NCBI RefSeq assembly: GCF_000372745.1
Contig: NZ_KB889694.1
Span: 8,256 to 66,071 of the forward strand
Direction: 5' to 3'
Length of the DNA stretch: 57,816 nt
DNA from: Embleya scabrispora DSM 41855
Lineage (GTDB): Bacteria > Actinomycetota > Actinomycetes > Streptomycetales > Streptomycetaceae
Shown here: one piece after another, positions 4,162 to 48,111 of the stretch
How the letters are laid out: each line of letters begins with the position of its first letter
Position numbering within the stretch: the stretch's first letter is position 1
Made by a program: the position numbers and the translations under genes
Notes under the pieces: generated by a model
The model's input: the letters and a program-made list of their open reading frames with translations, nothing else
What the model was told of the DNA's origin: nothing
The model's database searches: none

Positions 4162-4319
4162 GGATCTTCTTCCGGCTCGCGGACGTTGCCGAAGGGCACG
4201 GGCATCGTGGATATGACGCATCCCGACGCTCCGATGTGACCGATCGACGAACGAGCCCCGTGCCGAGGCCACCGATCCGACGCCGACGGCCGCCGCCGGC
4301 CGCGCTCTCCCGCGCCGGG

Positions 4320-10361: not shown

Positions 10362-10656
10362 CCGGTACCCCCGCACCCCGACGCCCGGCACGCAGCCGGA
10401 CACCGAGCATCCTGCCGGCCCGTGCCGACATCGGTGGGCACATCCCCTGATCCGACCGCCGGGGATGCGGTCCGTGCCTCCTGTCGGCCGGTGGCCGTCG
10501 CCGGCCGGCGACACCCGGTGATCGGGGCGGTTCCGGTCGGCGCGCTCGCGGGCGCTCGGCGGTGCTCACGCGGCCCTCGGCGCGCTCCCCGGGCCGCTCG
10601 GCGCGCGCTCGTGCGGCCCGACGCGGCGTCCGCCGGCCTCGTCGGGAGCGTCGCCT

Positions 10657-24345: not shown

Positions 24346-26862
24346 ATGAAGATACGTCCGTCCCGCTCCCGAGGCGCAGACGCCACCGACACCGACCCCG
24401 CGGGCGCAGGCCCTGCGGACACAGGCACAGGCCCTGCGGGCACAGGCCCCACGAGTACAGGACCGACGAGTGCGGGACCCGCGGGTGCGGGCCCGCCGAA
24501 CACAGGCCCCGCCGGCGCGGGCTCCGCCGGCGTACCCTCCGCGCCGCGTCCCCCGTTGCGGGCCCGGCTCGCCGCCCGGATCCGCCCGCGAGTGCGCGGC
24601 CTGATCACCCTCATGGTCGTCGTGCCCTCCGCGGGCATGGTCTTCTTCGCCGGATCCGCGATCCTGACGATGGTCGAACAGGCCCAGGCCGCCGACCACG
24701 CGCACGATCTGGTCGGCGTCTCGGCCGACGCCGGCGAGGTGGGGCGCCGGCTCCAGGCGGAGAGCGCCGCCGCGGTGACCCTGCTCTCCCGTGGCCCCGG
24801 CCCGATCACCAGCGCCGACTACCGCACCGCCATCGACGCGAGCGAGGCCGCGGTACGCCGCTACCAGGACCGCCGCCGCGACCTGGAGCCCGTCTCCACC
24901 GCCGAACGCGACGCGCTGGCCGCCGTGGACACCGCGCTGCGCGGCCTGCCGGGCCTGCGCACCCAGGTCGACCAGCGGGGTGTGGCCACCTCGGCGGCGG
25001 CCGTGCGCTACTGGGCCTGGATCGGCACCACCGTCGACCTGCGCGCCCGGGTCGCGCTTGATCCGGGAGTGTCCACCGGCACCGCCGGCCGCCTGCGCGC
25101 GATCACCGCGCTGGCCCAGGCGCGCGCCGCGCTGGGCCAGCAACAGGTCACCGTGCTGCGCTCGTTGGGCGCCGGTCCGCTGGGCGGCCCGGTGCTCAAG
25201 GCGGCCTCCACCGCCCGCGCCGCGCACGATCAGGCCCTGGAAGCCTTCGCGGTGACCGCGCCCGGTACCTGGCGGGACCGGCTCGCCCGGGCACTGGCCG
25301 GCCCCGAGATGATCCGGGTCGCCCAGACCGAGGACGCGCTCGGCCGCGACACGCTCGAAGCCGACGTCTGGCGCGCCGCCTTGGCCGAGCGCGCCGACCG
25401 GCTGTGGTCGGTGGAGCAACGGGCCGACGCCGACGTCGCCCGCGAGGTGGCCGACGTGACCGGCGACCGGTGGTGGCTGGCCGGCGTCCAGGGCGCGGTG
25501 CTCATCGGTGCGGTGCTGGCCGCCGCCGCGGCCGCGGCCTGGCTCGGTCGACTGCTGCACCGCCGCCTGCAGACCCTGGCCGAGCGGGTCACCGTGATGA
25601 CCCAGAAGACGCTGCCCGCCGTGGAGGCCGACCTGCGCCGCCGCGACGCGTTGGCCCCGCACGAGAGCGGCCGGGCGTACGCGGTCAAGATGCTCGGCCC
25701 GCAGGCGGACCGTGAGCGTGGTGCCGACGAGATCGCCGATTTGGCCCGCGCGCTGACCCAACTCGCCTACAGCACCGTCGAACACAGCGCGTCGCTGGTG
25801 CTGGCCCAGCGCGAGTACAACGACGCGCTCGGCGACGTCGCCCGGCGGATCCGGGTGCAGACCAGCCGGGTCAGCAGCGCCCTGGACCGACTCCAGGCCT
25901 CCAACCTGACGGTGGATCAATTGGGCACCGTCTTCGAGGTGGACCACGGAAACGAGGGCACCAAGCGACTCGCCGACTCGATCGCGGTGCTCAGCGGGCA
26001 GCCGCCGACCCGGTTGTGGCCCGACACCCCGCTGTACGAGGTGGTCCGCGCCGGCGCTCAGCGGGTGACCAACTACGAGCGACTGCCCGACATCGCGTTC
26101 AAGGGCATTCCCACCTCGGTCACGCTCGCCGGCGACACGGTCGGCGCGGTGACCCAGATCCTCGGCGAGATCGTCGACAACGCGGCCCGCTTCTCCGGCC
26201 GGCACGAGGTGGAGATCACCGCCGAACGCACCGAGGCGGGCGTCCTGGTGCGGGTGCGGGACCAGGGTGTGGGCCATCGCGACCCGGAACTGCTCAACCG
26301 CCGGCTGCGCGCCGACGTGGACGCGCTGCCCTCGCTGCGCCAGACCGGCCTGACCGTGGTCGCGCTCCAGGCCCGTCCGCTGGCCATCGAGGTGGAGCTG
26401 CAACCGGGCACGGACGGCGGGACGGTCGCCGAGATCGTACTGCCGCACACGATCATCGCCTCCGTGGGCCGGCACCGGCGCCGGGTGGAGCACGTCGCCC
26501 GCCCGCTCGCCGCACCGTCCGGCCCCGCACGGCCGATCGCCCTCGGGTCCGGCCTCAACGGCGCCGCCGCGAACGGCGTCACCCCCAACGGCGTCGGCGT
26601 CAACGGCAACGGCTCGTACGCCGCCGACGGGGATCCGAGCGCCACCGGCCCGATCATCGGCGGGCCGCTGCCCGCCGACTATGCCCCCGAGTTGACCGCG
26701 CAGGGCCTTCCGCGCCGCGAACGCCGGACGGCGCAGGCGACCCCCTTCCGTCGTACCGCCCCACCCACCCGTGACATCGCGCAGGCCAGCGCCGCCGCCG
26801 CCTCGTTCGGGCGCGGCGCCCGCGACCTGCCCTTCACCCGGACCCCCAAGGAATCCCCATGA
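24346..26862 (+). CDS. Conservon-type sensor histidine kinase (CvnA-like)
   Basis: 838 residues. The ATG at 24346 follows GGGAGCG. A repetitive Gly/Pro/Thr/Ala N-terminal tail (about 17-62) leads to a transmembrane helix (LITLMVVVPSAGMVFFAGSA). A helical extracytoplasmic nitrate-sensor-like domain follows, then a second transmembrane helix near 385-405. The cytoplasmic ATPase has the N box EIVDNAARFS and a DQGVGH G1 box. The usual MGLFVVGRLA-like G2 segment is replaced by TGLTVVALQAR, so the ATPase is atypical. No clear phospho-accepting His motif is seen, as in other conservon kinases. The tail is a long disordered Asn/Gly-rich region. It overlaps the next gene by ATGA. Confidence 0.85.
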   Translation: MKIRPSRSRGADATDTDPAGAGPADTGTGPAGTGPTSTGPTSAGPAGAGPPNTGPAGAGSAGVPSAPRPPLRARLAARIRPRVRGLITLMVVVPSAGMVFFAGSAILTMVEQAQAADHAHDLVGVSADAGEVGRRLQAESAAAVTLLSRGPGPITSADYRTAIDASEAAVRRYQDRRRDLEPVSTAERDALAAVDTALRGLPGLRTQVDQRGVATSAAAVRYWAWIGTTVDLRARVALDPGVSTGTAGRLRAITALAQARAALGQQQVTVLRSLGAGPLGGPVLKAASTARAAHDQALEAFAVTAPGTWRDRLARALAGPEMIRVAQTEDALGRDTLEADVWRAALAERADRLWSVEQRADADVAREVADVTGDRWWLAGVQGAVLIGAVLAAAAAAAWLGRLLHRRLQTLAERVTVMTQKTLPAVEADLRRRDALAPHESGRAYAVKMLGPQADRERGADEIADLARALTQLAYSTVEHSASLVLAQREYNDALGDVARRIRVQTSRVSSALDRLQASNLTVDQLGTVFEVDHGNEGTKRLADSIAVLSGQPPTRLWPDTPLYEVVRAGAQRVTNYERLPDIAFKGIPTSVTLAGDTVGAVTQILGEIVDNAARFSGRHEVEITAERTEAGVLVRVRDQGVGHRDPELLNRRLRADVDALPSLRQTGLTVVALQARPLAIEVELQPGTDGGTVAEIVLPHTIIASVGRHRRRVEHVARPLAAPSGPARPIALGSGLNGAAANGVTPNGVGVNGNGSYAADGDPSATGPIIGGPLPADYAPELTAQGLPRRERRTAQATPFRRTAPPTRDIAQASAAAASFGRGARDLPFTRTPKESP
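24394..24531 (+). repeat. Degenerate 15-base tandem repeat inside the kinase gene
   Basis: About seven to nine units of a 15-base period encode GPAGT, GPTST, GPTSA, GPAGA, GPPNT and GPAGA pentapeptides in the cytoplasmic N-terminal tail of the kinase. Copy number is likely to vary between strains by slippage. Confidence 0.7.
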
Positions 26863-27371
26863 CCGAGCCCGCCGTCGACCAGAGCGTGCTCGACGACTTC
26901 ATGCGCCAGTTCGTGCACGACCACGCCCCCGACGTCCTGCACGCGGTCGCCGCCAGCGGCGACTCGCTGCTGGTCGCCCAGGCCGCGCTGCCCGGTCGCA
27001 TCCGCGCCGACGAGGCCGGGCAGGCGGCGTGGGTCGCGAACGCCGAGAAGATCGCGTCGAGCGCGCCCGGGGCCCTGCTGATGCAGGACTACAGCGCCGA
27101 CCTGATGGGCCTGGGGCCGGTCAGCGTGCTGATGTCGCAGGCCGAGCACGGTCTGCTGCTCACCATGGGCAACACCAGCCCGGGCCCGGACGGGCAGGTG
27201 CACCCCTCGGCGCTGATCGTGGCGACCACCTGGAACGCCGACGTCGGCAACCTGATCCGGGCGATGCACGCGCTGATGGAACGCGTCGGCCCGTCCCTGA
27301 CGCCGCTCGCGCGTGGTCGTGGTCTTCAGCCGCAGCCCGCCCGCATGCCGGCCCCCAGCCGGGTCTTCTGA
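26859..27371 (+). CDS. Roadblock/LC7-domain protein (CvnB-like)
   Basis: 170 residues with a roadblock/LC7 core: ASGDSLLVAQAALP, SSAPGALLMQDYSADLMGLG, VLMSQAEHGLLLTMG and HPSALIVATTWNADVGNLIR. In conservons this protein acts with the kinase, a DUF742 protein and a small Ras-like GTPase at the membrane. Here the start overlaps the kinase stop (ATGA, 26859-26862), but no DUF742 or GTPase gene follows. The C-terminal Arg/Pro tail is longer than usual and may be remnant read-through. Confidence 0.82.
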   Translation: MTEPAVDQSVLDDFMRQFVHDHAPDVLHAVAASGDSLLVAQAALPGRIRADEAGQAAWVANAEKIASSAPGALLMQDYSADLMGLGPVSVLMSQAEHGLLLTMGNTSPGPDGQVHPSALIVATTWNADVGNLIRAMHALMERVGPSLTPLARGRGLQPQPARMPAPSRVF

Positions 27372-27586
27372 CCCCACACACCCGGCTGTCCGGTCCCGGA
27401 CGACCCGGCCATCCGCCCCGGTCGTCCGGAGTATCCGCGCGCCCGGCCCACCGGCCGTCCCGGCGCATCCGCCACGCCCGGCTCCCGCGCGCCCGAGACC
27501 GCGTTCCGCGTCCTCGGGCGACCCAGCCGGCAGTCCCATCCGGAGTCGTACCCCGTATCGCCGAACCTGCCGAGAGAGAGACGGAC

Positions 27587-28819
27587 ATGCGCAGCAGCAC
27601 ACGTAGACGGATCCGAAGCACCCGCACCCCCCTGGCCCTCGCCACCGGTTTACTCCTGGTGTTGTCGGCGTGCTCGGGCAGTGCGGCCGGCAACGACAAG
27701 GGCAAGGGATCCGACGCCGTCGCCAAAATCGGCCTGCTCACCCCCGCTTCCGGCCCGTACGCCGCGGTGGGCGAGGACACCCGTGCGGGCCTGGAGCTGT
27801 ACCGCGACACACACGGCGGCAAGCTCGGCGGGCTCAAGGCGGACATCGTGGCGCGCGACGAGGGCGCGGGGCCGCCGACCGCCGTCCCGGCCGCGACCGA
27901 ACTGGTCAAGCAGCAGAACGTGTTGGCCATCACCGGCATCGTCAGCGGCGGCAGCGTTGCCGGGGTGCTGCCGATCGCGGCCGCCAACAACACGGCGCTG
28001 ATGGGCGTGGCCGGCCGCCCCGAGTTCCCCGATCCCAAACTCACCGCGCACGTCTGGTCGTTCAACACCCAGTCCTACGAAGCCGGCGCCGCGGCCGGCC
28101 CCTGGGTCAAGGAACACGTCAACGGCCCGGTCTATGCGATCGGCCCGGACTACCAGGGCGGTTGGGACCAACTCAAGGGCTTCACCGAGTCGTTCACCAA
28201 GGCCGGCGGCACCCTGGCCAACCCGGATGGGAAGACCACCTTCACCCCGTTCCCGGGCACCCAGAACTTCCTGCCCTTCCTGAACAAGATCGCACAGAGC
28301 GGCGCCAAGGCCGTCTACGCGTTCTACGCGGGTACCGCTGCGGTCGACTTCGTCAAGCAGTACAAGACCTCCGAGGCCGCCAAGCTCCCGCTGTACGGCA
28401 GCGGGCCGCTGACCGAGGGGCGTCAACTCGACGCACAGGCCGACGCGGCGGCGGGCATCACCACGTTCGCCACCTACGGCGCGGATCTGGACAACCCGGC
28501 GAACCGGGCCTTCGTGGCCGCCTGGCAACAGCGCCACCCGGACCGCAGCCCGACCATCTACGCGGTCGCCGCGTGGGACATCGCCCGCTCGCTGGACACC
28601 GCCATCGCCGCGGTCCGCGCCGAGAAGAAGACGCTCACGCCCGAGGCGGTGAACGCCGCGTTGGGCAACGTCGGGCAAATCGACAGTCCGCGCGGGGTCA
28701 TGCAGCTGAACCCGGCCACCCACTCACCGGTGCAGCAGTGGTACCGCTTCGAAGTGCGCAACGACGGGCCCAAGCGGGCCAATGTGGCGGTCGAGCAACT
28801 CGCCGTCCTCGGCGGCTGA
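27587..28819 (+). CDS. Branched-chain-amino-acid-type ABC substrate-binding lipoprotein
   Basis: 410 residues. A lipoprotein signal peptide ends in LLLVLSAC with the lipidated Cys at residue 29. The mature part is a type I periplasmic-binding fold: IGLLTPASGPYAAVGEDTRA, AITGIVSGGSVAGVLPIAAA, YAIGPDYQGGWDQLKGF and AVYAFYAGTAAVDFVKQY. Such proteins bind leucine-type amino acids, amides or small aromatics. No permease or ATPase genes are near, so it is an orphan receptor here. It follows the conservon pair by about 215 bases and is followed 46 bases later by a methyltransferase gene. Confidence 0.9.
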   Translation: MRSSTRRRIRSTRTPLALATGLLLVLSACSGSAAGNDKGKGSDAVAKIGLLTPASGPYAAVGEDTRAGLELYRDTHGGKLGGLKADIVARDEGAGPPTAVPAATELVKQQNVLAITGIVSGGSVAGVLPIAAANNTALMGVAGRPEFPDPKLTAHVWSFNTQSYEAGAAAGPWVKEHVNGPVYAIGPDYQGGWDQLKGFTESFTKAGGTLANPDGKTTFTPFPGTQNFLPFLNKIAQSGAKAVYAFYAGTAAVDFVKQYKTSEAAKLPLYGSGPLTEGRQLDAQADAAAGITTFATYGADLDNPANRAFVAAWQQRHPDRSPTIYAVAAWDIARSLDTAIAAVRAEKKTLTPEAVNAALGNVGQIDSPRGVMQLNPATHSPVQQWYRFEVRNDGPKRANVAVEQLAVLGG

Positions 28820-31334: not shown

Positions 31335-32153
31335 TCAACGGGCCAGTCGCACCGGCTGCGCGGATTCCGCGGGGCGGGTGGGCTCGGTGTGCGCGGTCTC
31401 CTCGGTGTGGCCGACCCGCCAGTAGCCCATGAAGGCGATCGAGCGGTGGTCCATGCCGCGCTCGTCCTTGAGGTGCCGGCGCAGCGCACGCACCCGACCG
31501 GCCTCGCCGGCCAGCCAGGCGTAGCCGTGGTCGACCGGCAGGTGGGCTGCCCGGATCGCGTCCAGCAGCCGATTCTCCGCGACCGGCGCGCCGTCGCGAT
31601 GCACCCAGTCGACCCGCACGCCGGGCGGCGCCGCCAGGTGCTGGCGGTCCGCCGCGGAGCCAACCTCGACGAAGACGTGCCCGCGTGCGTCACCGGGCAG
31701 CGACTCGACGATGGACCCGATCGCGGGCAGCGCCGCGTGATCGCCGGCGAGCAGCAGCCGGCGGCCGGCGGGCGGCTCGAAGCTGTAGCCGCCGTTGCGC
31801 TCGGCGGTCGGCCCGAGCAGTTCGATCGCGTCGCCGGTGCGGGCCGAGCGGGCCCAGCGACAGGCGGGTCCGCCCGGCGCGTGCAGCGCGAAGTCGATGT
31901 CGATCTCGACCGGATCCGACCGGTGCGCGCGCACGGTGTAGGTGCGCTGGTACGGCCGGTCGGCCTCGGGGATCCGGGTCCATGCCTCGCGCCAGGTCAG
32001 GTCGTCCCGGGTGATCCGGGACGCGGGTCGGCCCTCGCGCGGGACGAAGAGCTTGACCCGTTGATCGGGGCCACCCGGGACGAAGTCCACCAGCCGCGGG
32101 CCGGTCAGGGTGATCCGTGTGGCGTTGCGGGTGATCGGCGTGTTGCGGACCAC
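31335..32153 (-). CDS. Siderophore-interacting protein (FAD/NADPH ferric-siderophore reductase)
   Basis: 272 residues as called from the GTG at 32153. The FAD-binding RPYQRTYTVRAH, the GGPACRWARSARTGDAIELLGP turn (in parts), the NADPH-side LLLAGDHAALPAIGSIVESL and the C-terminal HLKDERGMDHRSIAFMGYWR define the SIP family. It reduces Fe(III)-siderophore in the cytoplasm to release iron. The family N-terminus continues in frame upstream (ERRAQLYRPFQLT) with no ATG, GTG, TTG or CTG; an ATC at 32207 with GAGAGGG before it would complete it. The true start is therefore uncertain. It is divergent from the NIS operon across iron boxes. Confidence 0.88.
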   Translation of the reverse strand: MVRNTPITRNATRITLTGPRLVDFVPGGPDQRVKLFVPREGRPASRITRDDLTWREAWTRIPEADRPYQRTYTVRAHRSDPVEIDIDFALHAPGGPACRWARSARTGDAIELLGPTAERNGGYSFEPPAGRRLLLAGDHAALPAIGSIVESLPGDARGHVFVEVGSAADRQHLAAPPGVRVDWVHRDGAPVAENRLLDAIRAAHLPVDHGYAWLAGEAGRVRALRRHLKDERGMDHRSIAFMGYWRVGHTEETAHTEPTRPAESAQPVRLAR

Positions 32154-32263: not shown

Positions 32264-32282
32264 TTGGGTTGGCCCAACCTCG
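32264..32282. promoter_or_regulatory. Iron box 1 (DmdR/IdeR-type)
   Basis: TTGGGTTGGCCCAACCTCG matches 13 of 19 positions of the actinomycete iron-box consensus TTAGGTTAGGCTAACCTAA. It is nearest the siderophore-interacting protein gene. Confidence 0.55.
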
Positions 32283-32301
32283 GGTTAGGTTAACCTAACC
32301 C
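32282..32301. promoter_or_regulatory. Iron box 2: 20-bp perfect palindrome
   Basis: GGGTTAGGTTAACCTAACCC is fully self-complementary. Aligned from 32285 it matches 15 of 19 positions of the iron-box consensus. A DmdR1/IdeR-type Fe(II)-dependent repressor would bind here and shut off both the reductase gene and the NIS operon when iron is plentiful. Confidence 0.8.
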
Positions 32302-32381: not shown

Positions 32382-32400
32382 GCAACTATGCCTACCCTAA
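32382..32400. promoter_or_regulatory. Iron box 3, nearest the NIS operon
   Basis: GCAACTATGCCTACCCTAA (reverse complement TTAGGGTAGGCATAGTTGC) matches 12 of 19 consensus positions. It lies in the spacer of a weak candidate promoter (TTGGCC at 32375, TAAGTT at 32398, 17 bases apart), 100 bases before the first biosynthetic gene. Confidence 0.5.
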
Positions 32401-32499
32401 GTTGTTCCGAGTCCGGGCCGAGGATCCGGATCGACGCTCCGGGTCGATGGTCCGGTTCGCCGTGCCCGGGTCGACGTGTCCGAGAGGGACCGATCACGC

Positions 32500-33708
32500 A
32501 TGCGGCTGTACCTGCTCGCGCTCAACCCCACCGACTCGGTGACCGAGGGATTCCTCCCCGCCGCCGGTCGCCTCGGACTCGAGGTCACCCTGCTCGCCGA
32601 CCCGGCCCACGCGGGTGCCCACCGCGAACTGTGCGCCGCGCTCCCCCGGGTCGAGGTGCTGGAGTGCGACGTACGCGACTTCCGCGCGGTGCTCGATCGC
32701 ATCCTTACCGCACACCGACCGGACGCGGTGTTCACCAACAGCGACCACCTCCAGGTCCAGGCCGCCCTCGCGGCCCACTACTTCGGCCTGCCCGCCAAGG
32801 ACTGGACGGCCGCGCTTCGGGCCAAGAACAAGGCACAGACGCGCCGCCGGCTCGCCGACACCGGCGCGGACACCGTGTGGGCCGCCGAACTGGCGCCCGA
32901 GCGGCAGGCGACGGACCTGATCGCTCTCGCGCCGCCGTATCCGTGCGTGCTCAAACCGCGCGAGGGCGTCGCGGGCGAGGACGTGGTGCTGGTCGCGAAC
33001 GACGCGGAACTCCTCACGCGCTGCGCCGAGATACGCTCTCGCCGGCCGGCGGCGGCGCTGCTGGTCGAGGAATTCCTGTCCGGCGAGTTGTACACCCTGG
33101 AGACCCTCGGCGACCGAAACGGCGTCCGGGTCCTGGGCGGATTCCACACCCGGTTGTCGCCGCCGCCGTACTTCATCGAGACGCGGCTGGACCTGGTGAC
33201 CGACCCGCCGCCCGCGATCACCGCCGGGGTGCTCGCCCAACTCGACGCGCTGGGTGTCGGATTCGGGGCGTGCCACACGGAGTTCGTGGTCCAGGACGGG
33301 CGGCCCCGGATCATCGAGGTCAACTACCGCGCGATCGGCGACCAGTGCGATCTGCTGCTGGAGGACGTACTCGGCCTCCCGCTGTTCGAGTACATCCTGC
33401 GCGTGCATCTCGGCATCGACCTGCCCGCCGACCTGGGCACCCGCCCGGGGCGACACGCCCGGGTCGACTACCCGTGCGCCGACCGCGCCGGCGTGCTCGG
33501 CACAGCCCCCGGCCGCGAGGACAGGCTCCTCGACGGCGGCGTGCGGATCGACTACCGGCCGCTGCGCACGGTCGGCGAACGGCACGAACTGCACCACTCC
33601 AACCGGGACTACCTCGGGGTGCTGCGCACCTTCGGGGGCGATCGAGCCGCCGTGCACCGTGCGGCCGAGGAATTCCTGACCGACCGGCAGTGGAGCATCA
33701 CGCCGTGA
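32500..33708 (+). CDS. ATP-grasp ligase of NIS siderophore biosynthesis (PvsA-like)
   Basis: 402 residues. ATP-grasp features: PYPCVLKPREGVAGEDVVLV (nucleotide-binding lysine and loop), LLVEEFLSGELYTLETLG and the metal-binding end RIIEVNYRAIGDQCDLLLED. Such enzymes join a carboxylate to an amine via an acylphosphate. In the vibrioferrin set (pvsABCDE) the first gene, pvsA, encodes this type. The ATG at 32500 begins MRLYLLALNPTDSV; a GTG at 32476 is in frame with a weaker ribosome site. The stop overlaps the next start as GTGA (33705-33708). It is first in a four-gene operon behind iron boxes. Confidence 0.87.
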   Translation: MRLYLLALNPTDSVTEGFLPAAGRLGLEVTLLADPAHAGAHRELCAALPRVEVLECDVRDFRAVLDRILTAHRPDAVFTNSDHLQVQAALAAHYFGLPAKDWTAALRAKNKAQTRRRLADTGADTVWAAELAPERQATDLIALAPPYPCVLKPREGVAGEDVVLVANDAELLTRCAEIRSRRPAAALLVEEFLSGELYTLETLGDRNGVRVLGGFHTRLSPPPYFIETRLDLVTDPPPAITAGVLAQLDALGVGFGACHTEFVVQDGRPRIIEVNYRAIGDQCDLLLEDVLGLPLFEYILRVHLGIDLPADLGTRPGRHARVDYPCADRAGVLGTAPGREDRLLDGGVRIDYRPLRTVGERHELHHSNRDYLGVLRTFGGDRAAVHRAAEEFLTDRQWSITP

Positions 33709-35417
33709 CCCCGCGCGCCGGTGACCCGCCCATATCCCGGGCCCGCAGCATCCCGACGCCCACGGCGGCGCACCGCTTCGAGGGCGAACTGCTGTGCCGA
33801 GTCCTGGACACCGTGCTGCGCGAGGACGTGCTGGGCCTGCGGAACACGGCCGTGCCGCTGTCCCGACCGGACGGCACGTGGCTGCGGCTGACCGTGCGAG
33901 GCGGCACCGACACGTGGCTGCTGCCGGTCCGGGCCGACGGGTTCCAATGCGAATACGCGGCCCGGGCGCCGCTCCTGGTGGGCGAGCACGACGGCGCCCG
34001 GGTCACCGACACCGACCACCTGCTCGCGATACTGCGCGATGCGGCCGACGCACAGGACCGGTCCGGCTTCGACGACTTCGCCGAGGAATGCCGGCAGGCG
34101 GCCCGGGCCGGCAGGCTGCTCGCGCGCACCGGCTCGGCCGTGCACGCCCGACTCGCGGAGCGACACGGCCCGGACCCGAGCACGTGGACCGGCCCGGGTG
34201 CGGGGCCGGCCCTGGACACCTTGGCCGCGCACGTCGACCATCCGCTCTACCCGACCGCACGCGCCCGCTCCGGTCTGGCCGCGGCGGCGCTGCGCCGATA
34301 CGCGCCCGAGCACCATCCGAGCTTCCGGCTGCGCTGGGCGCTGCTGCCGCACGACGCGACGACGCGCACCGGGACGCTGCCCGAGTGGTGGCCGACCGCG
34401 GCGGAACTCGGCCGACCGGACCTGACCTCCGACCATCTGGCCCTGCCCGTGCACCCGTTGACGATCGACCGGCTCCCGGCCCCGGCGGTGCGGACCGATC
34501 GGGAGTACCTGAACGTGCGCCCGACGTTGTCGATGCGTACCGTCGCGGTGGCGCACGATCCCGCCGTACATCTCAAGCTCCCGCTGCCCATCGCCACCCT
34601 CGGCCTGCGCAACCGGCGCACCATCAAGCCCGGCACCCTCGTCGACGGCGCCGCCGGGCAGCGCCTCCTGGCCGAGGTGTTGCACCGCGAACCACGTTTT
34701 CGGGACCGGGTGCTGCTTGCCGACGAGCAGAGCCACCTGCACGCGGGGCACGAGCTGCTGGCCGCCCTGGTGCGCCGCCACCCGCCCGGTCTGGAGGATG
34801 TCCTGGTGCTGCCGCTCGCCGCGCTGCTCGCGAAGGGGCCGGACGCGGTCCTGGTGCTGGACCGGGTCGCGGGCCGCTTCTACGGCGGCGACCGCTTCGC
34901 GCTGCTGGACGCCTATCTCACGCTGCTGCTGGACTGGCAGACCACCCTGTACCGGTATGGCATCGCGCTCGAATCACACCCGCAGAACGTCTCCCTGGTA
35001 CTGGCCGAGGGCCGCCCGGCCGGCCTGTTGTTCAAGGACAACGACGGCCCTCGGGTGTATCCGGCCCGCTGTCCGCTGCCGCACGACGGGTTCGACGACC
35101 CGCGCACGTACACCACGCACGAGGGCCCGCTCGCCGACGTGTTCGTCACGATCACCGTGCATCTGTGCGCCGGCGCCATCGCCTTCGCACTGCCGGCGCC
35201 GGAACGCGACCGGCTGCTCCGGCTGGTGTACCAGCGGCTCGACGAGCTCGCGGAGCCGGAGCTGCGCCGCCGAGTACTGATCGAGGACCGATTGCCGGTC
35301 AAGGCGATGATCACCGCCGGCACCCTGCTCAGCAAGCAGCGCTCGGGCGCGGCCGACATCAACAAGCACTACACGACCGGGCCGAACTACCTGCGATGGG
35401 CGGCGAGTCGGAAATAG
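33705..35417 (+). CDS. IucA/IucC-family NIS siderophore synthetase (PvsB-like)
   Basis: 570 residues from a GTG overlapping the previous stop. NIS synthetase signatures: DHPLYPTARARSGL, LALPVHPLTIDRLP, LNVRPTLSMRTVAV, KLPLPIATLGLRNRRTIKPG, ALESHPQNVSLVL and LLFKDNDGPRV. The C-terminal IucA/IucC thumb (RLPVKAMITAGTLLSKQRSG) is complete. It adenylates a carboxylic acid such as citrate or 2-oxoglutarate and condenses it with an amine or alcohol. Gene order suggests the PvsB equivalent. Confidence 0.88.
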   Translation: MTPRAGDPPISRARSIPTPTAAHRFEGELLCRVLDTVLREDVLGLRNTAVPLSRPDGTWLRLTVRGGTDTWLLPVRADGFQCEYAARAPLLVGEHDGARVTDTDHLLAILRDAADAQDRSGFDDFAEECRQAARAGRLLARTGSAVHARLAERHGPDPSTWTGPGAGPALDTLAAHVDHPLYPTARARSGLAAAALRRYAPEHHPSFRLRWALLPHDATTRTGTLPEWWPTAAELGRPDLTSDHLALPVHPLTIDRLPAPAVRTDREYLNVRPTLSMRTVAVAHDPAVHLKLPLPIATLGLRNRRTIKPGTLVDGAAGQRLLAEVLHREPRFRDRVLLADEQSHLHAGHELLAALVRRHPPGLEDVLVLPLAALLAKGPDAVLVLDRVAGRFYGGDRFALLDAYLTLLLDWQTTLYRYGIALESHPQNVSLVLAEGRPAGLLFKDNDGPRVYPARCPLPHDGFDDPRTYTTHEGPLADVFVTITVHLCAGAIAFALPAPERDRLLRLVYQRLDELAEPELRRRVLIEDRLPVKAMITAGTLLSKQRSGAADINKHYTTGPNYLRWAASRK

Positions 35418-35494
35418 CGTGCCGTCTCGCCCGCCTGGACCCCACCGCATCTCCCGCACGCCCCGACACCGCCTTCGAACCGCTGGAGTCGCCC

Positions 35495-37222
35495 ATGCCG
35501 CTCTCGTCGGCCCACCCCCGAACCGCCTCCGCCGACCCGCCCACGCTGCCCTCGGCCGACGACGCCGTCGCGCACACCCTGCTCAACTGTCTGCACCGGG
35601 AGGTGTGCGGCCCGGAAGGACGCAGCTTCGTGGAGTCCGGCGACGCCGGCCATCTCCGGCTGCACCTGGCCTGTTCGGATACGTGGTTGCGCGTTCGGCT
35701 GCGGCGCACCTCGCTGCTGGGCGACCACCGGTTCACCGGTCCGGCGGCCGAACTGCGCGGGGCCGCGTGGCGCGTGCTGACCTGGTCGGAGCTGGCCGAG
35801 CGGATCCACACCGAACTGGATCTGCGGACCGGCGTCGGCAACGACGAGTTCCTGGGCCAACTGGCCTCCAGCCATGCCGGCGTGGCGGCGGGGCTGGCCC
35901 GGCGCGGCGCCGCCCGACCCACCTCGCGCTACCTGGAATCGGAGCAGGCCCTGCTGTTCGGGCACCGATTCCATCCCACGCCCAAGGCTCGCGGCACCGA
36001 CCCGGCCACATGGGCGGCCTACGCGCCCGAGGCCCGGGCCGCGTTTCGCCTGCGACATCTGGCGGTCCGGACCGAACTGATCGCGCAGGAGCGGATTTCC
36101 GCCTCGGACACCGCGGTCCTGGACCGACTCGGCCCGGTCCCGGCCGGATACACGCTGCTGCCCGCGCACCCGTGGCAATACGAACTCCTCGCCGAACACC
36201 CGCGCCTGCGCGCCGCGTTGGCCGGCGGCGATGTGCTCGATCTGGGCCCGGGCGGCGACCCGTTCACTCCCACCGCGTCGGTGCGCACGCTGGCGGGCGC
36301 GGGGGTGTTCCTCAAGTTCGGTCTGAACGTGCGGATCACCAACTGCGTGCGCAGGAACGCCGCCTACGAGTTGTCCGGGGCGGTCGCGCTGACCCGCGTG
36401 TTGGCCCCGATCCTGGAGCGATCGGCGGCCCGATACCCGGACTTCGCGATGCTCGGCGAGCCCGCGTACCGCAGTGTGTCGGCGGCGGTGGCGCCCGACC
36501 TGCTCGAAGGGTTCGGGGTGATCGTCCGGGACGGCCTGGACGCGCGGTTGCGGCCGGGCACCACGGCGCTGTTGGCCGGCGCCGTGGCCGCCGAATATCC
36601 CACCGGCTCCGCGCACGTGTCCCGCCTGCCCCCTGCCACCGGCCCACAGGCGGCGCTGCGCTGGTGGGACGACTACCTGCGCCTGCTCGTCCCGCCGGTG
36701 CTGGCCGCCTACTTCACGCACGGCGTGGTGCTGGAGCCGCACCTGCAGAACGTGTTGCTCGCGGTCGACGACGACGGTCGACCCCGGCAGGTGCTGATCC
36801 GCGACATGGAGGGCACCAAGCTGCTGCCCGGACCACACGCCGCCACCCTGGCCGCACTGCCCGCCTCGGTCGCCGAACCCATGACCTACACCGCCCGGCG
36901 CGGCTGGGACCGGGTGGCCTACTGCCTGCTGGTCAACAACATCGCCGAGATGCTCGCCGCGCTGACCGATCTGCATCCGCGGTTGGAGGCGAGACTGTGG
37001 GCACGGGTGCGCACGGTCCTGGCGAACTGCTCGGCCGAGCACGGCGAACCGCCGCCGCTGCGGGCGCTGCTCGCGGGCGGACCGCTGCCCGCCAAGGGCA
37101 ACCTGCTCGCCCGCTGGGAGCGGCGCGCCGACCGCGAGGCGCGGTACCTGCGCATCCCCTCGCCCCTGGCCGCGTCGATACCCGACGGGGTCCGCCGCAC
37201 ACCCGTCCGGAGCGCGCGATGA
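35495..37222 (+). CDS. IucA/IucC-family NIS siderophore synthetase (PvsD-like)
   Basis: 575 residues. The ATG at 35495 follows GGAG; 77 bases separate it from the previous stop, the largest gap in the operon. Motifs: GHRFHPTPK (156-164), LLPAHPWQYELL, PTASVRTLAGAG, KFGLNVRITNCVRRNAAYEL, LEPHLQNVLLAV and IRDMEGTKLL. These are better conserved than in the preceding gene and are typical of citrate-activating NIS enzymes. By order it corresponds to PvsD, which in vibrioferrin synthesis couples citrate to serine. The next gene begins inside its stop codon (ATGA). Confidence 0.9.
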   Translation: MPLSSAHPRTASADPPTLPSADDAVAHTLLNCLHREVCGPEGRSFVESGDAGHLRLHLACSDTWLRVRLRRTSLLGDHRFTGPAAELRGAAWRVLTWSELAERIHTELDLRTGVGNDEFLGQLASSHAGVAAGLARRGAARPTSRYLESEQALLFGHRFHPTPKARGTDPATWAAYAPEARAAFRLRHLAVRTELIAQERISASDTAVLDRLGPVPAGYTLLPAHPWQYELLAEHPRLRAALAGGDVLDLGPGGDPFTPTASVRTLAGAGVFLKFGLNVRITNCVRRNAAYELSGAVALTRVLAPILERSAARYPDFAMLGEPAYRSVSAAVAPDLLEGFGVIVRDGLDARLRPGTTALLAGAVAAEYPTGSAHVSRLPPATGPQAALRWWDDYLRLLVPPVLAAYFTHGVVLEPHLQNVLLAVDDDGRPRQVLIRDMEGTKLLPGPHAATLAALPASVAEPMTYTARRGWDRVAYCLLVNNIAEMLAALTDLHPRLEARLWARVRTVLANCSAEHGEPPPLRALLAGGPLPAKGNLLARWERRADREARYLRIPSPLAASIPDGVRRTPVRSAR

Positions 37223-38415
37223 TCACACCCGCCGTGCGGACCCGGGTGGCGAACCTGGACGCCGCCGAACTTCCCGCCTACATCCACGACCTCGACGGGC
37301 TGCGGGCGCACGTGGCGACGGTGCGCGCCGCGCTGCCGGCCCGGGTCGAGCTGTACTACGCGGCCAAGGCCAACCCGGCGCCGAAGATCCTGGCCGCGCT
37401 CGCCGCCGACGTGAGCGGCTACGAGGTCTCCTCCGGCGGTGAACTCGCCCACGTGCTGGCCCATCTGCCCACCGTGCCGATCGCCTTCGGCGGCCCCGGC
37501 AAGACGGTGGACGAACTGATCGCCGCGCTGCGCGCGGGTGTCGGGCGCTTCCATGTGGAAAGCCGCCACGAGTTGCACCAGCTGATCGCGCTGGCCGCCC
37601 GGTTCCGGCCCGAGCGCGACGTCGAGGTGCTGCTGCGGGTCAATCTGCCGCTGGGGCCGGACGTACTGCACGGCGCGGCGCTGACGATGGGCGGCGACTC
37701 CGGCCCGTTCGGGATGGATCCGTTCGAGGTCGAGTCCTGTCTGCGCTTGCTCACCGGGCCGGACGCGGGTCGAGCGCGCCTTCGCGGCATCCACGCGCAC
37801 CTGGCCAGCGGCCTGGACGCGGACACGCAGCTCGCGGTCGCCGAACGCGTCATCGGGTGGACGCGGGACGTTGCGGTGCGACATCGGGTCGCGTTGCCCG
37901 AAGTGAACATCGGCGGCGGGATGGCGGTCGACTACGCGGATCCGGCCGCCCGCTTCGACTGGACCCGCTTCGGCGCCGGCCTGGGCCGCCTGCTGGCCGA
38001 CCGACCGGACCTCACCGTGCGAATCGAGCCGGGCCGGGCGCTGACCGCCTACTGCGGCTGGTACGCCACCGAAGTCCTGGATCTGAAGCACAGTCACGGC
38101 AGCACCTTCGCCGTGCTGCGCGGCGGAACCCACCACCTGCGCACCCCGGCGGCCAAGGGTCACGACCAGCCGTGCGCGATCGTGCCCACCACGAACCCAT
38201 GGCCCTACCCGTGGCCGCGACCGCAGATCCACGACACCGAGGTCACCCTGACCGGTCAACTGTGCACCCCCAAGGACGTGTTCGCCCGCCGGCGACCGGT
38301 CTCCCGGCTCCGCGTCGGCGACCGCGTCGTCTTCGCGATGGCCGGCGCCTACGCGTGGAACATCTCCCATCACGACTTCCTGATGCACCCGCACCCGAGC
38401 TTCCACTACCTGTGA
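37219..38415 (+). CDS. Type III PLP-dependent decarboxylase (PvsE/LysA-like)
   Basis: 398 residues, fold-type III alanine-racemase-like barrel. The PLP lysine is K50 in YYAAKANPAPK. Phosphate and ring contacts lie in HAHLASGLD, VNIGGGMAVDY and RIEPGRALTAYCGWY, and the catalytic Cys in QLCTPKDVF. It resembles diaminopimelate and ornithine decarboxylases and PvsE, which decarboxylates the seryl intermediate of vibrioferrin to the ethanolamine form. The ATG overlaps the NIS synthetase stop by four bases, so it is a true member of the operon rather than a separate lysA. Confidence 0.9.
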   Translation: MITPAVRTRVANLDAAELPAYIHDLDGLRAHVATVRAALPARVELYYAAKANPAPKILAALAADVSGYEVSSGGELAHVLAHLPTVPIAFGGPGKTVDELIAALRAGVGRFHVESRHELHQLIALAARFRPERDVEVLLRVNLPLGPDVLHGAALTMGGDSGPFGMDPFEVESCLRLLTGPDAGRARLRGIHAHLASGLDADTQLAVAERVIGWTRDVAVRHRVALPEVNIGGGMAVDYADPAARFDWTRFGAGLGRLLADRPDLTVRIEPGRALTAYCGWYATEVLDLKHSHGSTFAVLRGGTHHLRTPAAKGHDQPCAIVPTTNPWPYPWPRPQIHDTEVTLTGQLCTPKDVFARRRPVSRLRVGDRVVFAMAGAYAWNISHHDFLMHPHPSFHYL

Positions 38416-44400: not shown

Positions 44401-45269
44401 CGAGTCGTTGCCTCCGTCTCCGCGTCGGTCGCGGCCGCGCCCGCGGCCCGCTCGGGCAGCGGCTCGCCGATGGTGGGTACGCCGGACAACAGGGCCCGGG
44501 TGTACTCGTGTTCCGGGTTCTCCAGGACCTGTGCGGCCGGGCCGCACTCGACCAGGACGCCTCGGTCCATCACCGCGATCCGGTCCGCCAGGTAGCGCAC
44601 GACGGCCAGGTTGTGCGTGATGAACAACATCGCGAAGCCGAGTTCGCGTTGCAGGTCGCGGATCAGATTGAGCACCGCGCCCTGGACCGAGACGTCCAGT
44701 GCGGAGGTGACCTCGTCGGCGACCAGCACGGCCGGCCGGGCGGCGAGCGCGCGGGCCAGCGCGACGCGTTGGCGCTGGCCGCCGGAGAGCGCGTGCGGCA
44801 GGCGTGTGCTGACGCCGGGGTCGATGCCGACCAGGTCGAGGTAGCGGGCCACCTCGCTCGCCCGCGTCGCACGGTCGCTGCGCGGCAGCGCCTCGGCGAC
44901 CGAGCCGCCGATGGTCAGGCGCGGGTTGAGCGACGCGAACGGGTCCTGGAAGACCAACTGGATCGGCCTGCGCCCGGGTTTGCGGCCCTGGTCGACGCCG
45001 TCCACCAGGACCTGTCCCGCGTAGACGGGCACCAGTCCGACGGCGGCCCGGCCCAGGGTGGACTTACCCGATCCGGAGCCGCCGACCAGGCCGACCACGC
45101 TTCCCGCGGGCACCTCCAGGGACACGTCGTCGACAGCGGTCGACGCGGTGCGGCCGCGGCCGTAGCGCACGGTGATGTTGCGCAGTTCGAGCGAACCGGA
45201 CGTGGCGCTCGCGGCGGGGCCCGAGGCGGCTTCGGCGGCGGAGGAATCCACCGTGCTCACGGCTTTCAT
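44397..45269 (-). CDS. Dipeptide/oligopeptide ABC transporter ATPase (DppF/OppF-like)
   Basis: 290 residues. Walker A GGSGSGKST, Q-loop QLVFQDPFASLNPR, ABC signature LSGGQRQRVALARALA, Walker B VLVADEVTSALD and H-loop LFITHNLAVVRYLAD. The C-terminal peptide-transporter tail is short. It pairs with the ATPase half of the DppC-DppD fusion. Both ends overlap neighbours by ATGA (45266-45269 and 44397-44400). Confidence 0.93.
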   Translation of the reverse strand: MKAVSTVDSSAAEAASGPAASATSGSLELRNITVRYGRGRTASTAVDDVSLEVPAGSVVGLVGGSGSGKSTLGRAAVGLVPVYAGQVLVDGVDQGRKPGRRPIQLVFQDPFASLNPRLTIGGSVAEALPRSDRATRASEVARYLDLVGIDPGVSTRLPHALSGGQRQRVALARALAARPAVLVADEVTSALDVSVQGAVLNLIRDLQRELGFAMLFITHNLAVVRYLADRIAVMDRGVLVECGPAAQVLENPEHEYTRALLSGVPTIGEPLPERAAGAAATDAETEATTR

Positions 45270-47119
45270 CGTGCCTCCTCCAGTTCGTGGGTGGCGGTGG
45301 TGATCGGATCCCAGCACGCGACGCGACGTCCGGGGCGGATCTGCTCCAGCACCGGCTCCTCGGTGCGGCAGCGGTCGGTGGCCCTGGCGCAGCGCGGCGC
45401 GAACGGGCAGCCGACGATCTCCTCGCCGGGCTGGGGCGGGCGGCCGGGGATGGTCGCCAGCGGGGTGTCCCGGTCGGTGGTCATGCTGGGCACCGCGCCG
45501 ATCAGCGCGGCCGAGTACGGGTGGGCCACGCCGTCGGCGAGGTCCCCGACCGGGAGTTCCTCCACGATCCGGCCCGCGTACATCACCACGACGCGGTCGC
45601 ACACCTGGGAGACGACGGCGATGTCGTGCGAGATGAGCAACAACGCGGCGCCCGATTCGGTGCGCACGTCCCGGAGCAGGGCCAGCACCTGGGCCTGCAC
45701 GGTCACGTCCAGGGCCGTGGTGGGTTCGTCGGCGATGATCAGGCGGGGCTCGCCCATCAGGCCCATCGCGATCATCACGCGTTGGCGCATACCGCCGGAG
45801 AACTCGTGCGGGCGCTTGCGGACCCGCAGTTCGGGGTTGATGATGCCCACCGCGCCCAGTCGGGAGACGGCCCGGGTGAGGGCCGCCGCGCGCCCGGCGT
45901 TGTGGTGCACCTCGGCCACCTCGGCGAGTTGCCGGCCGACCGTGAGCGCGGGGTTGAGCGAGGCCATCGGGTCCTGGAACACCATGGCCATCGAAGTGCC
46001 CTTGGGGGCTTGCTTGTTCAGGTCCCGGTCGCCGAAGCGCAGGCTCCGGGCGCTGACCCGGCCGGGGTGCGGGACCAGTCCGGCAGCGGCGAGCGCGGTC
46101 AGGCTCTTGCCCGAGCCGGACTCGCCGACGATGCCTACCGCTTCGCCCTCGTCGACGGTGAGGCAGACGTCGTGCACCGCGGTGTGTCCGGCGAAGCGGA
46201 CCTGCAGGTGGTCGATGTTCAGCAGGCCGGACGCGGTCTTCTCGGCGGGCGCCGCGGAGGTCGCCTCGGGCGTGACCTCGGCCTGCGGCGCGGTACGGCC
46301 GGCGTTCGCCTTGGCGACCACCTCGCCGATCAGGCCGAAGGTGATGCCGGTGAGCACGATCGCGGAGCCCGGACCGACCGCCGACATCGGGTCCACCATG
46401 ACCCGGTCGAGTTGCTCGTTGAGCAGGCGTCCCCAGTCGTAGTCGGGCGGTTGCACACCCAGGCCGAGGAAGGACAGGCCGGAGAAGGCGACCAGGATGC
46501 CGGCGGCGGTCGTCGAGACGAACAGCGCGACGGGTTCGGCGATGTTGGGCAGGATGTGCCGGACGATGATCCGGAAGCGGCCGACGCCGAGGATCCGCGC
46601 CGCGGCCACGTAGTCGGTGCCGGCGATCGAGGCGGTCAGGTTCTGCACGAGTCGGGCGGTGCTGGGCGCCGCGCCCAGGCCGATGGCGAAGGCCGCGGAA
46701 AAGGTGCCCACACCGAAGATGACCGCGAGGAAGAGCACGAACAGCAGGCCCGGGAAGGCGACGAGCAGGTTGACCGTCGCGGTGATCAGGCGACCCGCGC
46801 GGCGACCGAGAACAGCCGGCAGGACACCCAGGACCAGGCCGCCGACGACCGCGATGAGCGTGGCGAACAGGGTGAGTTCCAGGGTGAGCCGGGTCGCCAC
46901 CACCACGCGGGCGGCGATGTCGCGACCCAGCGCGTCGGTACCGAACAGGTGCTCGGTGCCGCTGTGTTGGCCGATCGCGTCGGTGTCGATCCGGTCGGCC
47001 GTGTCGCCGAGCAGCATGGGCCCGAAGATTGCCGTCAGGAAGATGATCGTGCTCGCGACGGCGGCGGTGATCCCCAACGGGGTGCGCAGGGCGAGGCGCA
47101 GTCTTGGTGCGTTTGACAT
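45266..47119 (-). CDS. Fused dipeptide ABC permease-ATPase (DppC-DppD)
   Basis: 617 residues. Residues 1 to about 285 form a DppC-type permease: a first helix (GITAAVASTIIFLTAIFGPM), FGTDALGRDIAARVVVATRL and the EAA loop ADYVAAARILGVGRF-like text (GTDYVAAARILGVGRFRIIV). A short Ala/Glu linker follows. Residues 310-617 form a DppD ATPase: GESGSGKS, MVFQDPMASLNPAL, FSGGMRQRVMIAMGLM, LIIADEPTTALD and the oligopeptide C-terminal CPFAPRCARATDRC. The two proteins are normally separate; here one chain spans both, with no stop or frameshift. Two bases separate it from dppB. Confidence 0.92.
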   Translation of the reverse strand: MSNAPRLRLALRTPLGITAAVASTIIFLTAIFGPMLLGDTADRIDTDAIGQHSGTEHLFGTDALGRDIAARVVVATRLTLELTLFATLIAVVGGLVLGVLPAVLGRRAGRLITATVNLLVAFPGLLFVLFLAVIFGVGTFSAAFAIGLGAAPSTARLVQNLTASIAGTDYVAAARILGVGRFRIIVRHILPNIAEPVALFVSTTAAGILVAFSGLSFLGLGVQPPDYDWGRLLNEQLDRVMVDPMSAVGPGSAIVLTGITFGLIGEVVAKANAGRTAPQAEVTPEATSAAPAEKTASGLLNIDHLQVRFAGHTAVHDVCLTVDEGEAVGIVGESGSGKSLTALAAAGLVPHPGRVSARSLRFGDRDLNKQAPKGTSMAMVFQDPMASLNPALTVGRQLAEVAEVHHNAGRAAALTRAVSRLGAVGIINPELRVRKRPHEFSGGMRQRVMIAMGLMGEPRLIIADEPTTALDVTVQAQVLALLRDVRTESGAALLLISHDIAVVSQVCDRVVVMYAGRIVEELPVGDLADGVAHPYSAALIGAVPSMTTDRDTPLATIPGRPPQPGEEIVGCPFAPRCARATDRCRTEEPVLEQIRPGRRVACWDPITTATHELEEAR

Positions 47120-47121
47120 CG

Positions 47122-48111
47122 TCAGCTCCCGCGAATCGTGGACTGGGGATCGGCGGCGGCGACGGCGAGGTCGACCACGAAGTTGATCGTGAGGGCGGCG
47201 GCTCCGTAGACGAGCACGATGCCCTGGACGAGCGGGTAGTCCTTCTGCAGGATCGCCTGGACGATGGTCATGCCCAGGCCGGGCCAGGCGAAGACGTTCT
47301 CGATCAGGACCGTGCCTGCCAGCAGGCCACTGAGCAGCAGGCCACCGAGGGTGAGCGAGGAGGTCAGCAGGTTGGGCAACGCGTGCCGCAGGTAGACCAG
47401 TCGGCCCGGCAGTCGCTTGGCCCGGGCGGTGCGCATGTAGTCCGTCTCGAACACGCGCAGCGCCTCGACCCGAACGATCCGCGACAGCGCGGCGATCGGA
47501 GTGATGGCCAGCGCGAGCACCGGCAGGACGTAGGAGTCCGGCCCCTCGCGCAGCGCCACCGGGAACCAGCCGAGCGAGACCCCGAACACCGAGGCGAGGC
47601 CGACGGCGAGGAGGAACTCCGGGATGGCCACGATCGCCCCGGTCGAGGAGGCGAAGGCCAGCTCGCCGCGCCGGCGCCGGCCGTTGCGGGTCCACACGGC
47701 CATGGCCATGCCCAGCGGAATGGCCACCAGCATCACCAGGAGGAACGCGTAGATCGCGATCTCCAAGGTCGCCGGCAGTCGGTCGCCGATCATCCGGGAC
47801 ACCGGGACCCGGGCGGTGATCGATTCACCCAGATCGCCGTGGAAGAGACCGCTCACGAAGTGCTTGTACTGGGAGATCAGCGAGTCGTCCAGGCCCAGTT
47901 GTTCCTTGCGGGCGGCGACCGCCTCGGGCGTGGCGTTGAGTCCCAGAGCGCCGCGGACCGGGTCGCCGGGGACGAAGTGGATCATCGCGAAGGCGGCGGT
48001 GACCAGTGCGGCGAGCGAAACCAATAGGCGCCCGGTACGGCGTACGAAGAAGGAGGTCCAGGGGCCGAGCCGGAAGTCGAGCACCCGACCGGCCGGAGTT
48101 GCGGTGCTCAT
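47122..48111 (-). CDS. Dipeptide ABC transporter permease (DppB-like)
   Basis: 329 residues, six transmembrane helices. Typical DppB text: GRLLVSLAALVTAAFAMIHF, VPGDPVRGALG, SITARVPVSRMIGDRLPATL, the EAA loop DYMRTARAKRLPGRLVYLRH and the terminal VLIENVFAWPGLGMTIVQAI. Its ATG overlaps the stop of the binding-protein gene (48108-48111). It forms the channel with the permease half of the fusion protein. Confidence 0.94.
   Translation of the reverse strand: MSTATPAGRVLDFRLGPWTSFFVRRTGRLLVSLAALVTAAFAMIHFVPGDPVRGALGLNATPEAVAARKEQLGLDDSLISQYKHFVSGLFHGDLGESITARVPVSRMIGDRLPATLEIAIYAFLLVMLVAIPLGMAMAVWTRNGRRRRGELAFASSTGAIVAIPEFLLAVGLASVFGVSLGWFPVALREGPDSYVLPVLALAITPIAALSRIVRVEALRVFETDYMRTARAKRLPGRLVYLRHALPNLLTSSLTLGGLLLSGLLAGTVLIENVFAWPGLGMTIVQAILQKDYPLVQGIVLVYGAAALTINFVVDLAVAAADPQSTIRGS

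Follow-up and report, generated by a model that had tools for sequence, protein, structure and literature searches.

A vibrioferrin-type siderophore operon lacking pvsC, predicted in the actinomycete Embleya scabrispora DSM 41855

The window analyzed here, a stretch of 57,816 nucleotides of Embleya scabrispora DSM 41855 (contig NZ_KB889694.1, positions 8,256 to 66,071), carries four intact open reading frames (ORFs) arranged head to tail on the + strand between window positions 32500 and 38415. They encode an ATP-grasp ligase, two nonribosomal peptide synthetase (NRPS)-independent siderophore (NIS) synthetases, here termed NIS1 and NIS2, and a pyridoxal phosphate (PLP) decarboxylase, in the gene order pvsA-pvsB-pvsD-pvsE. 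The genes and their Pfam matches are the following:

32500..33708, + strand: pvsA-like ATP-grasp ligase (ATP-grasp_4, 5e-9)
33705..35417, + strand: pvsB-like NIS synthetase (NIS1), type B-like (IucA_IucC, 1e-25; FhuF, 2e-11)
35495..37222, + strand: pvsD-like NIS synthetase (NIS2), type A, AcsD-like (IucA_IucC, 4e-48; FhuF, 3e-37)
37219..38415, + strand: pvsE-like PLP decarboxylase of the ornithine/diaminopimelate type (Orn_Arg_deC_N, 1e-25; Orn_DAP_Arg_deC, 3e-16)

The ATP-grasp and NIS1 genes overlap by 4 bp (GTGA), as do the NIS2 and decarboxylase genes (ATGA), and a gap of 77 nt separates NIS1 from NIS2. The original prediction had described four tightly packed genes in pvsA-pvsB-pvsD-pvsE order, which the intact ORFs, Pfam domains and short junctions bear out; it had also noted that pvsC is missing from the operon, in agreement with the short distance between the two NIS genes. 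Of the stretch it had assigned (32382..38415), the end at 38415 stands, but position 32382 does not mark the beginning of a gene: it falls upstream of the ATP-grasp gene and in another reading frame. Alternative in-frame starts are possible at GTG 32476 for the ATP-grasp gene and at ATG 35396 for NIS2; for the former, ATG 32500 is the likelier start, since it is preceded by a GAGAGGGA stretch and two aligned actinobacterial homologues begin like its product. The operon is conserved at all four same-genus loci.

Each of the four proteins finds its own counterpart as top match in the pvs operons of Vibrio sp. THAF190c, Cupriavidus necator H16 and Rhodococcus sp. WAY2 alike. For the ATP-grasp ligase, NIS1, NIS2 and the decarboxylase, respectively, identities are 39, 32, 33 and 41% to the Vibrio proteins, 48, 37, 37 and 48% to those of Cupriavidus, and 47, 45, 47 and 57% to those of Rhodococcus; for the ATP-grasp ligase and the decarboxylase, these matches speak against closest relatives in an unrelated pathway. 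In a quick NIS tree, whose support values are Shimodaira-Hasegawa-like approximate likelihood ratios (SH-aLRT) only, NIS1 falls inside the PvsB clade (17 rows, SH-aLRT 99) and NIS2 inside the PvsD/AcsD clade (19 rows, SH-aLRT 98), while DesD and the rhb-type enzymes of the host genome are placed apart from both. The predicted affinity of the two synthetases to PvsB and PvsD, and not to desferrioxamine, aerobactin or staphyloferrin enzymes, is thereby upheld. An aerobactin-like assignment was rejected. The desferrioxamine (des) pathway was rejected as well, as neither synthetase groups with DesD; the 36 window proteins that were scanned include none of its lysine decarboxylase, monooxygenase and acyltransferase, which the original prediction had reported absent. 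In the PDB, the best matches are AcsD for NIS2 (4e-72) and 6knh for the decarboxylase (3e-85), and the ATP-grasp profile is closest to L-amino-acid ligases. The decarboxylase retains the AAKAN and GQLCTPKD motifs, and the AcsD active-site residues that were checked are kept in NIS2. These relationships support the reading of the four genes as an actinobacterial, pvsC-less version of the vibrioferrin-type (pvs) biosynthetic operon.

The Vibrio pvsABCDE operon contains the same four biosynthetic families in the same order, but the Embleya operon lacks pvsC between the NIS genes, a TonB receptor and a linked substrate-binding protein (SBP); its proteins are 32-41% identical to their Vibrio counterparts, with fixed substitutions in PvsB and PvsE, and its iron box is of the actinobacterial type. 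The Rhodococcus sp. WAY2 operon, located on plasmid pRWAY01, shows 44-57% identity to all four Embleya proteins and additionally holds a major facilitator superfamily (MFS) exporter, an SbnG-like aldolase/citrate lyase, an SBP and permeases. A PvsD-alignment scan of named genomes confirmed 565 places; among the best 80 of these, ranked by similarity to the Vibrio protein, the order pvsA-NIS1-MFS-NIS2-pvsE occurs in 79 (two with one gene split into two matches), and the exception is a 4.4-kb contig. The lack of actinobacteria among the best 80 is meaningless, given the ranking by similarity to Vibrio PvsD.

The kinship of NIS2 to AcsD and of the decarboxylase to 6knh, together with the finding that SbnC is by fold nearest to NIS1, would also suit a staphyloferrin B- or achromobactin-type pathway. 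This assignment is disfavoured and appears very improbable. The cluster on Sodalis plasmid pSG1, which we take to be achromobactin-type, shares an AcsD-type synthetase and a PLP decarboxylase with the Embleya operon but comprises three NIS enzymes and a diaminobutyrate aminotransferase, with no ATP-grasp protein annotated, whereas the window has two NIS enzymes and an ATP-grasp ligase. As for staphyloferrin B, the sbn pathway uses three NIS enzymes, and the SbnC and SbnF models score far under their NCBIfam cut-offs (49.8 bits against 700 and 52.4 against 900); it was rejected on these scores and on the presence of two NIS genes only.

Vibrioferrin is a carboxylate siderophore of marine and plant bacteria, and in Xanthomonas it goes by the name xanthoferrin, a naming taken from the original prediction. 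A 2017 review describes the molecule as built from four units, ethanolamine, alanine, 2-oxoglutarate and citrate, each present once (PMC5577590). From this make-up and the type A, type B and L-amino-acid-ligase assignments, we infer the following order of steps. NIS2 (PvsD/AcsD type) would activate citrate and form an ester with L-serine; the decarboxylase (PvsE) would convert O-citryl-serine to O-citryl-ethanolamine; the ATP-grasp enzyme (PvsA) would join L-alanine to the ethanolamine amine; and NIS1 (PvsB, type B) would attach 2-oxoglutarate, followed by closure to the hydroxy-pyrrolidone. Because pvsC is missing, export would proceed through a transporter encoded elsewhere in the genome, uptake may rely on an unlinked FecB/CD-type ATP-binding cassette (ABC) system, and iron could be freed by the reductase encoded divergently, a siderophore-interacting protein (SIP). 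The most likely product would be vibrioferrin or a close citrate/2-oxoglutarate carboxylate, and the operon as a whole is probably an iron-repressed one that builds this siderophore or a carboxylate very near to it.

Several observations weigh against this assignment. In the scheme of the 2017 review, PvsE acts on free serine and PvsA forms the ester, and the enzymes are called untested (PMC5577590). The literature searched, namely PMC, with subscription papers mostly outside, yielded no actinomycete from which vibrioferrin had been isolated. In the structural model of NIS1, the loop 178-191 with the conserved H179 has a predicted local distance difference test (pLDDT) value below 50, which makes the model pocket uninformative on substrate. 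Genes for pvsC, FecB-type and FecCD proteins are absent from the 36 window proteins scanned by Pfam, and a Rhodococcus query retrieved no PvsC orthologue from the genome (8 weak matches, the best with 30% identity over 186 residues). Lastly, alignments of 21-24 actinobacterial against 80-81 proteobacterial rows per protein contain 10-14 columns per protein that are fixed differently in the two groups. Among them, H425 of NIS1 is present in 23/23 actinobacterial rows and replaced by N in 80/80 proteobacterial rows; A193 and G198 of PvsE occur in 21/21 actinobacterial rows, with F and Q in 80/80 proteobacterial rows; and the loop that contains these two PvsE positions lacks one residue in the six actinobacterial sequences displayed.

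Given the substitutions fixed in PvsB and PvsE of the sampled actinobacteria, the product might also be a modified one. Under such a scheme, the assembly logic would be the same, and the decarboxylase and the PvsB-type synthetase would take another amino acid or acid, yielding a distinct vibrioferrin analogue; we regard this as unlikely. NIS1 H425 and the PvsE HAHLAS-G loop represent two fixed differences inside catalytic motifs: the former occupies the position equivalent to AcsD His444 and the latter belongs to the HxH loop, both being fixed across the actinobacteria sampled. In Sodalis AcsE, in the 6knh chain and in those proteobacterial PvsE rows that are shown, the loop is one residue longer than in actinobacteria, and histidine takes the place of the actinobacterial Q317. 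Every other aligned NIS enzyme, however, has the histidine found in NIS1, so that N in proteobacterial PvsB is the odd state, and the reference decarboxylases disagree among themselves at position 193 (V in AcsE). Moreover, the share of fixed differences is similar in all four proteins (11/86, 13/93, 14/109 and 10/119 of the columns conserved in both groups), and these differences may therefore reflect plain distance between the groups.

Beside the operon, tblastn detected no pvsC, FecB-type or FecCD genes, and Pfam gave no MFS protein as a linked exporter among the 36 window proteins. The only transport proteins among those scanned were an MMPL protein (1981-4272), a binding protein of the amino-acid type (26771-28819) and an ABC set of the oligopeptide type (45266-49679), and even the closest of them is ~4 kb off. 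A genome search for uptake genes gave 12 FecCD matches (11 above cut-off) and 4 SBP matches, the best of the latter, on contig C180, having 40% identity to the Rhodococcus pvs-linked SBP; a search that allowed 3 mismatches gave no iron box on that contig. The lack of linked transport genes and of a PvsC orthologue in the genome could indicate a decayed or silent operon, which would have lost pvsC and the uptake genes and would make or use little or no siderophore. Such decay seems highly doubtful: the four ORFs are intact with their motifs retained, the genes are conserved in four same-genus loci with the iron box kept, and pvsC is likewise undetected in 13 other complete actinobacterial loci. 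Across the 21 complete actinobacterial loci, an MFS gene is present in 7 and undetected by tblastn in 14, window included, and pvsC presence or absence requires at least 5 changes on a 23-locus tree. We thus treat pvsC as accessory in pvs operons, and the Embleya operon as a pvsC-less variant. At another locus, L032 (G023:C273), the operon is rearranged, with NIS2 upstream of pvsA-NIS1-MFS, and a tblastn search of the 17.7-kb contig gave no pvsE.

The region upstream of the operon holds two further features:

31335..32153, - strand: SIP, an FAD-binding ferric-siderophore reductase gene, divergent (Pfam SIP, 2e-40; FAD_binding_9, 5e-31)
32282..32301, no strand: perfect 20-bp palindrome GGGTTAGGTTAACCTAACCC between the divergent SIP and pvsA genes

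We take the palindrome GGGTTAGGTTAACCTAACCC to be an iron box, on the basis of the IdeR/DmdR1 consensus. When the window was shuffled 100 times with its dinucleotides preserved, the pattern did not turn up once. At 16 of the 23 actinobacterial loci compared, the 430 nt upstream of pvsA contain an iron-box match that beats every one of 100 mononucleotide shuffles. The seven remaining loci have no box above the shuffles; in five of these, L031, L037, L039, L040 and L044, an SBP gene lies directly upstream of pvsA, and in L040 and L044 a candidate box-like match is located farther upstream. With up to 3 mismatches on both strands, the consensus gives 22 matches (16 sites) in the whole genome against 0 in the control, including one just upstream of an rhb-type siderophore cluster (contig C129) and others near FecCD genes (contigs C110 and C103). 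The operon is thus predicted to be iron-repressed.

The SIP gene occupies the same place in 3 other same-genus loci (77-83% identity), that is, in 4/4 loci of the genus and 0/20 other actinobacterial loci. Of the 24 actinobacterial loci, 12 carry a FhuF-like gene at this upstream place, in two of the 12 beyond ABC genes; the label comes from a single Pfam FhuF_C match in five neighbours scanned and from the mutual homology of seven neighbours. SIP is a likely partner for iron release from the siderophore. A broader scheme, in which pvs operons of actinobacteria make up a branch of their own with altered PvsB and PvsE pockets, a vibrioferrin analogue is made and exported without PvsC and Embleya has recruited SIP instead of a FhuF-type enzyme, strikes us as rather unlikely.

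The operon type is widespread in the family. A strong pvsA match occurs in 20/60 other genomes of relatives (E 2e-214 to 2e-95), with weaker matches in many of the remaining ones (<75 bits in the rows listed) left uncounted, and all four genes are present in 17 of the 20 relatives examined in full. At E<=1e-80, a PvsA orthologue is found in 117/297 Streptomycetaceae genomes, its own included, and in 10/17 genera; three of these 117 matches are interrupted by an internal stop, and a few are incomplete. A phylum-wide PvsA-alignment sample gave 3/396 genomes including its own (E<=1e-60), all of the same family, a figure that may be an undercount, as scoring covered no more than 4 candidates per genome among the matches listed. 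In PMC9394381, Streptomyces avermitilis avsA-D (SAV7320-7323) is presented as a four-gene vibrioferrin-like polyhydroxycarboxylate siderophore cluster of three siderophore synthetase components and a diaminopimelate decarboxylase, with no exporter listed; judging by the table in that source, it is presumably orthologous to the Embleya operon. Likewise, PMC7385001 gives 18% similarity to the vibrioferrin cluster for a Streptomyces tunisialbus siderophore region. In view of these two precedents, the operon type and its occurrence in actinomycetes are not new, and the rarity that had been implied for actinomycetes does not hold. The Embleya operon is a solid but unremarkable representative of a known type of siderophore operon. 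That more than a third of the Streptomycetaceae genomes sampled hold pvsA, the marker gene, bears on soil iron competition and on the naming of actinomycete 'NI-siderophore' regions.

Within the genus, a plasmid-collection search gave its best matches in Embleya sp. NBC_00888 (NIS2 84%, ATP-grasp 81%) and Embleya sp. NBC_00896 (75% and 78%). For two named strains of the genus, pvsA and pvsD are located on 5.7- and 3.1-Mb records (NZ_CP108785.1 and NZ_CP108777.1) filed as plasmids; a conserved secondary chromosome is proposed for Embleya in PMC13152386.

The host genome measures 11.4 Mb, in an assembly that is 98% complete. Desferrioxamine is usual in Streptomycetaceae, and no DesD-type synthetase was found in this genome: a family search gave five NIS genes, none of them DesD in the tree. 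Siderophore supply would accordingly fall to three loci: the pvs operon, the cluster of rhb type and one that is probably of catechol type. The rhb-type cluster (L130:4588-13573, contig C129) encodes a class-III aminotransferase, a PLP decarboxylase, an NIS enzyme, an acetyltransferase, a Lys/Orn monooxygenase and a second NIS enzyme, with an iron box just upstream, an order we liken to the rhizobactin/schizokinen type. On contig C110, L197:3975-15670 contains an iron-boxed Peripla_BP_2 protein, an enterochelin-esterase-type protein, an MFS transporter and a 2481-residue ORF, probably an NRPS. An orphan IucA-like NIS enzyme is encoded on contig C124 (L003:850-2763, - strand); here and in one same-genus genome (L168), two residues that are catalytic as a rule have been exchanged (K to A and D to G in the aligned motifs), and the two other same-genus genomes contain family matches with similar scores. 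In the window, where no other Cas genes were seen among the 36 proteins scanned with Pfam, positions 7845-10514 (- strand) encode a Cas3-like helicase with an HD domain toward its C-terminal side.
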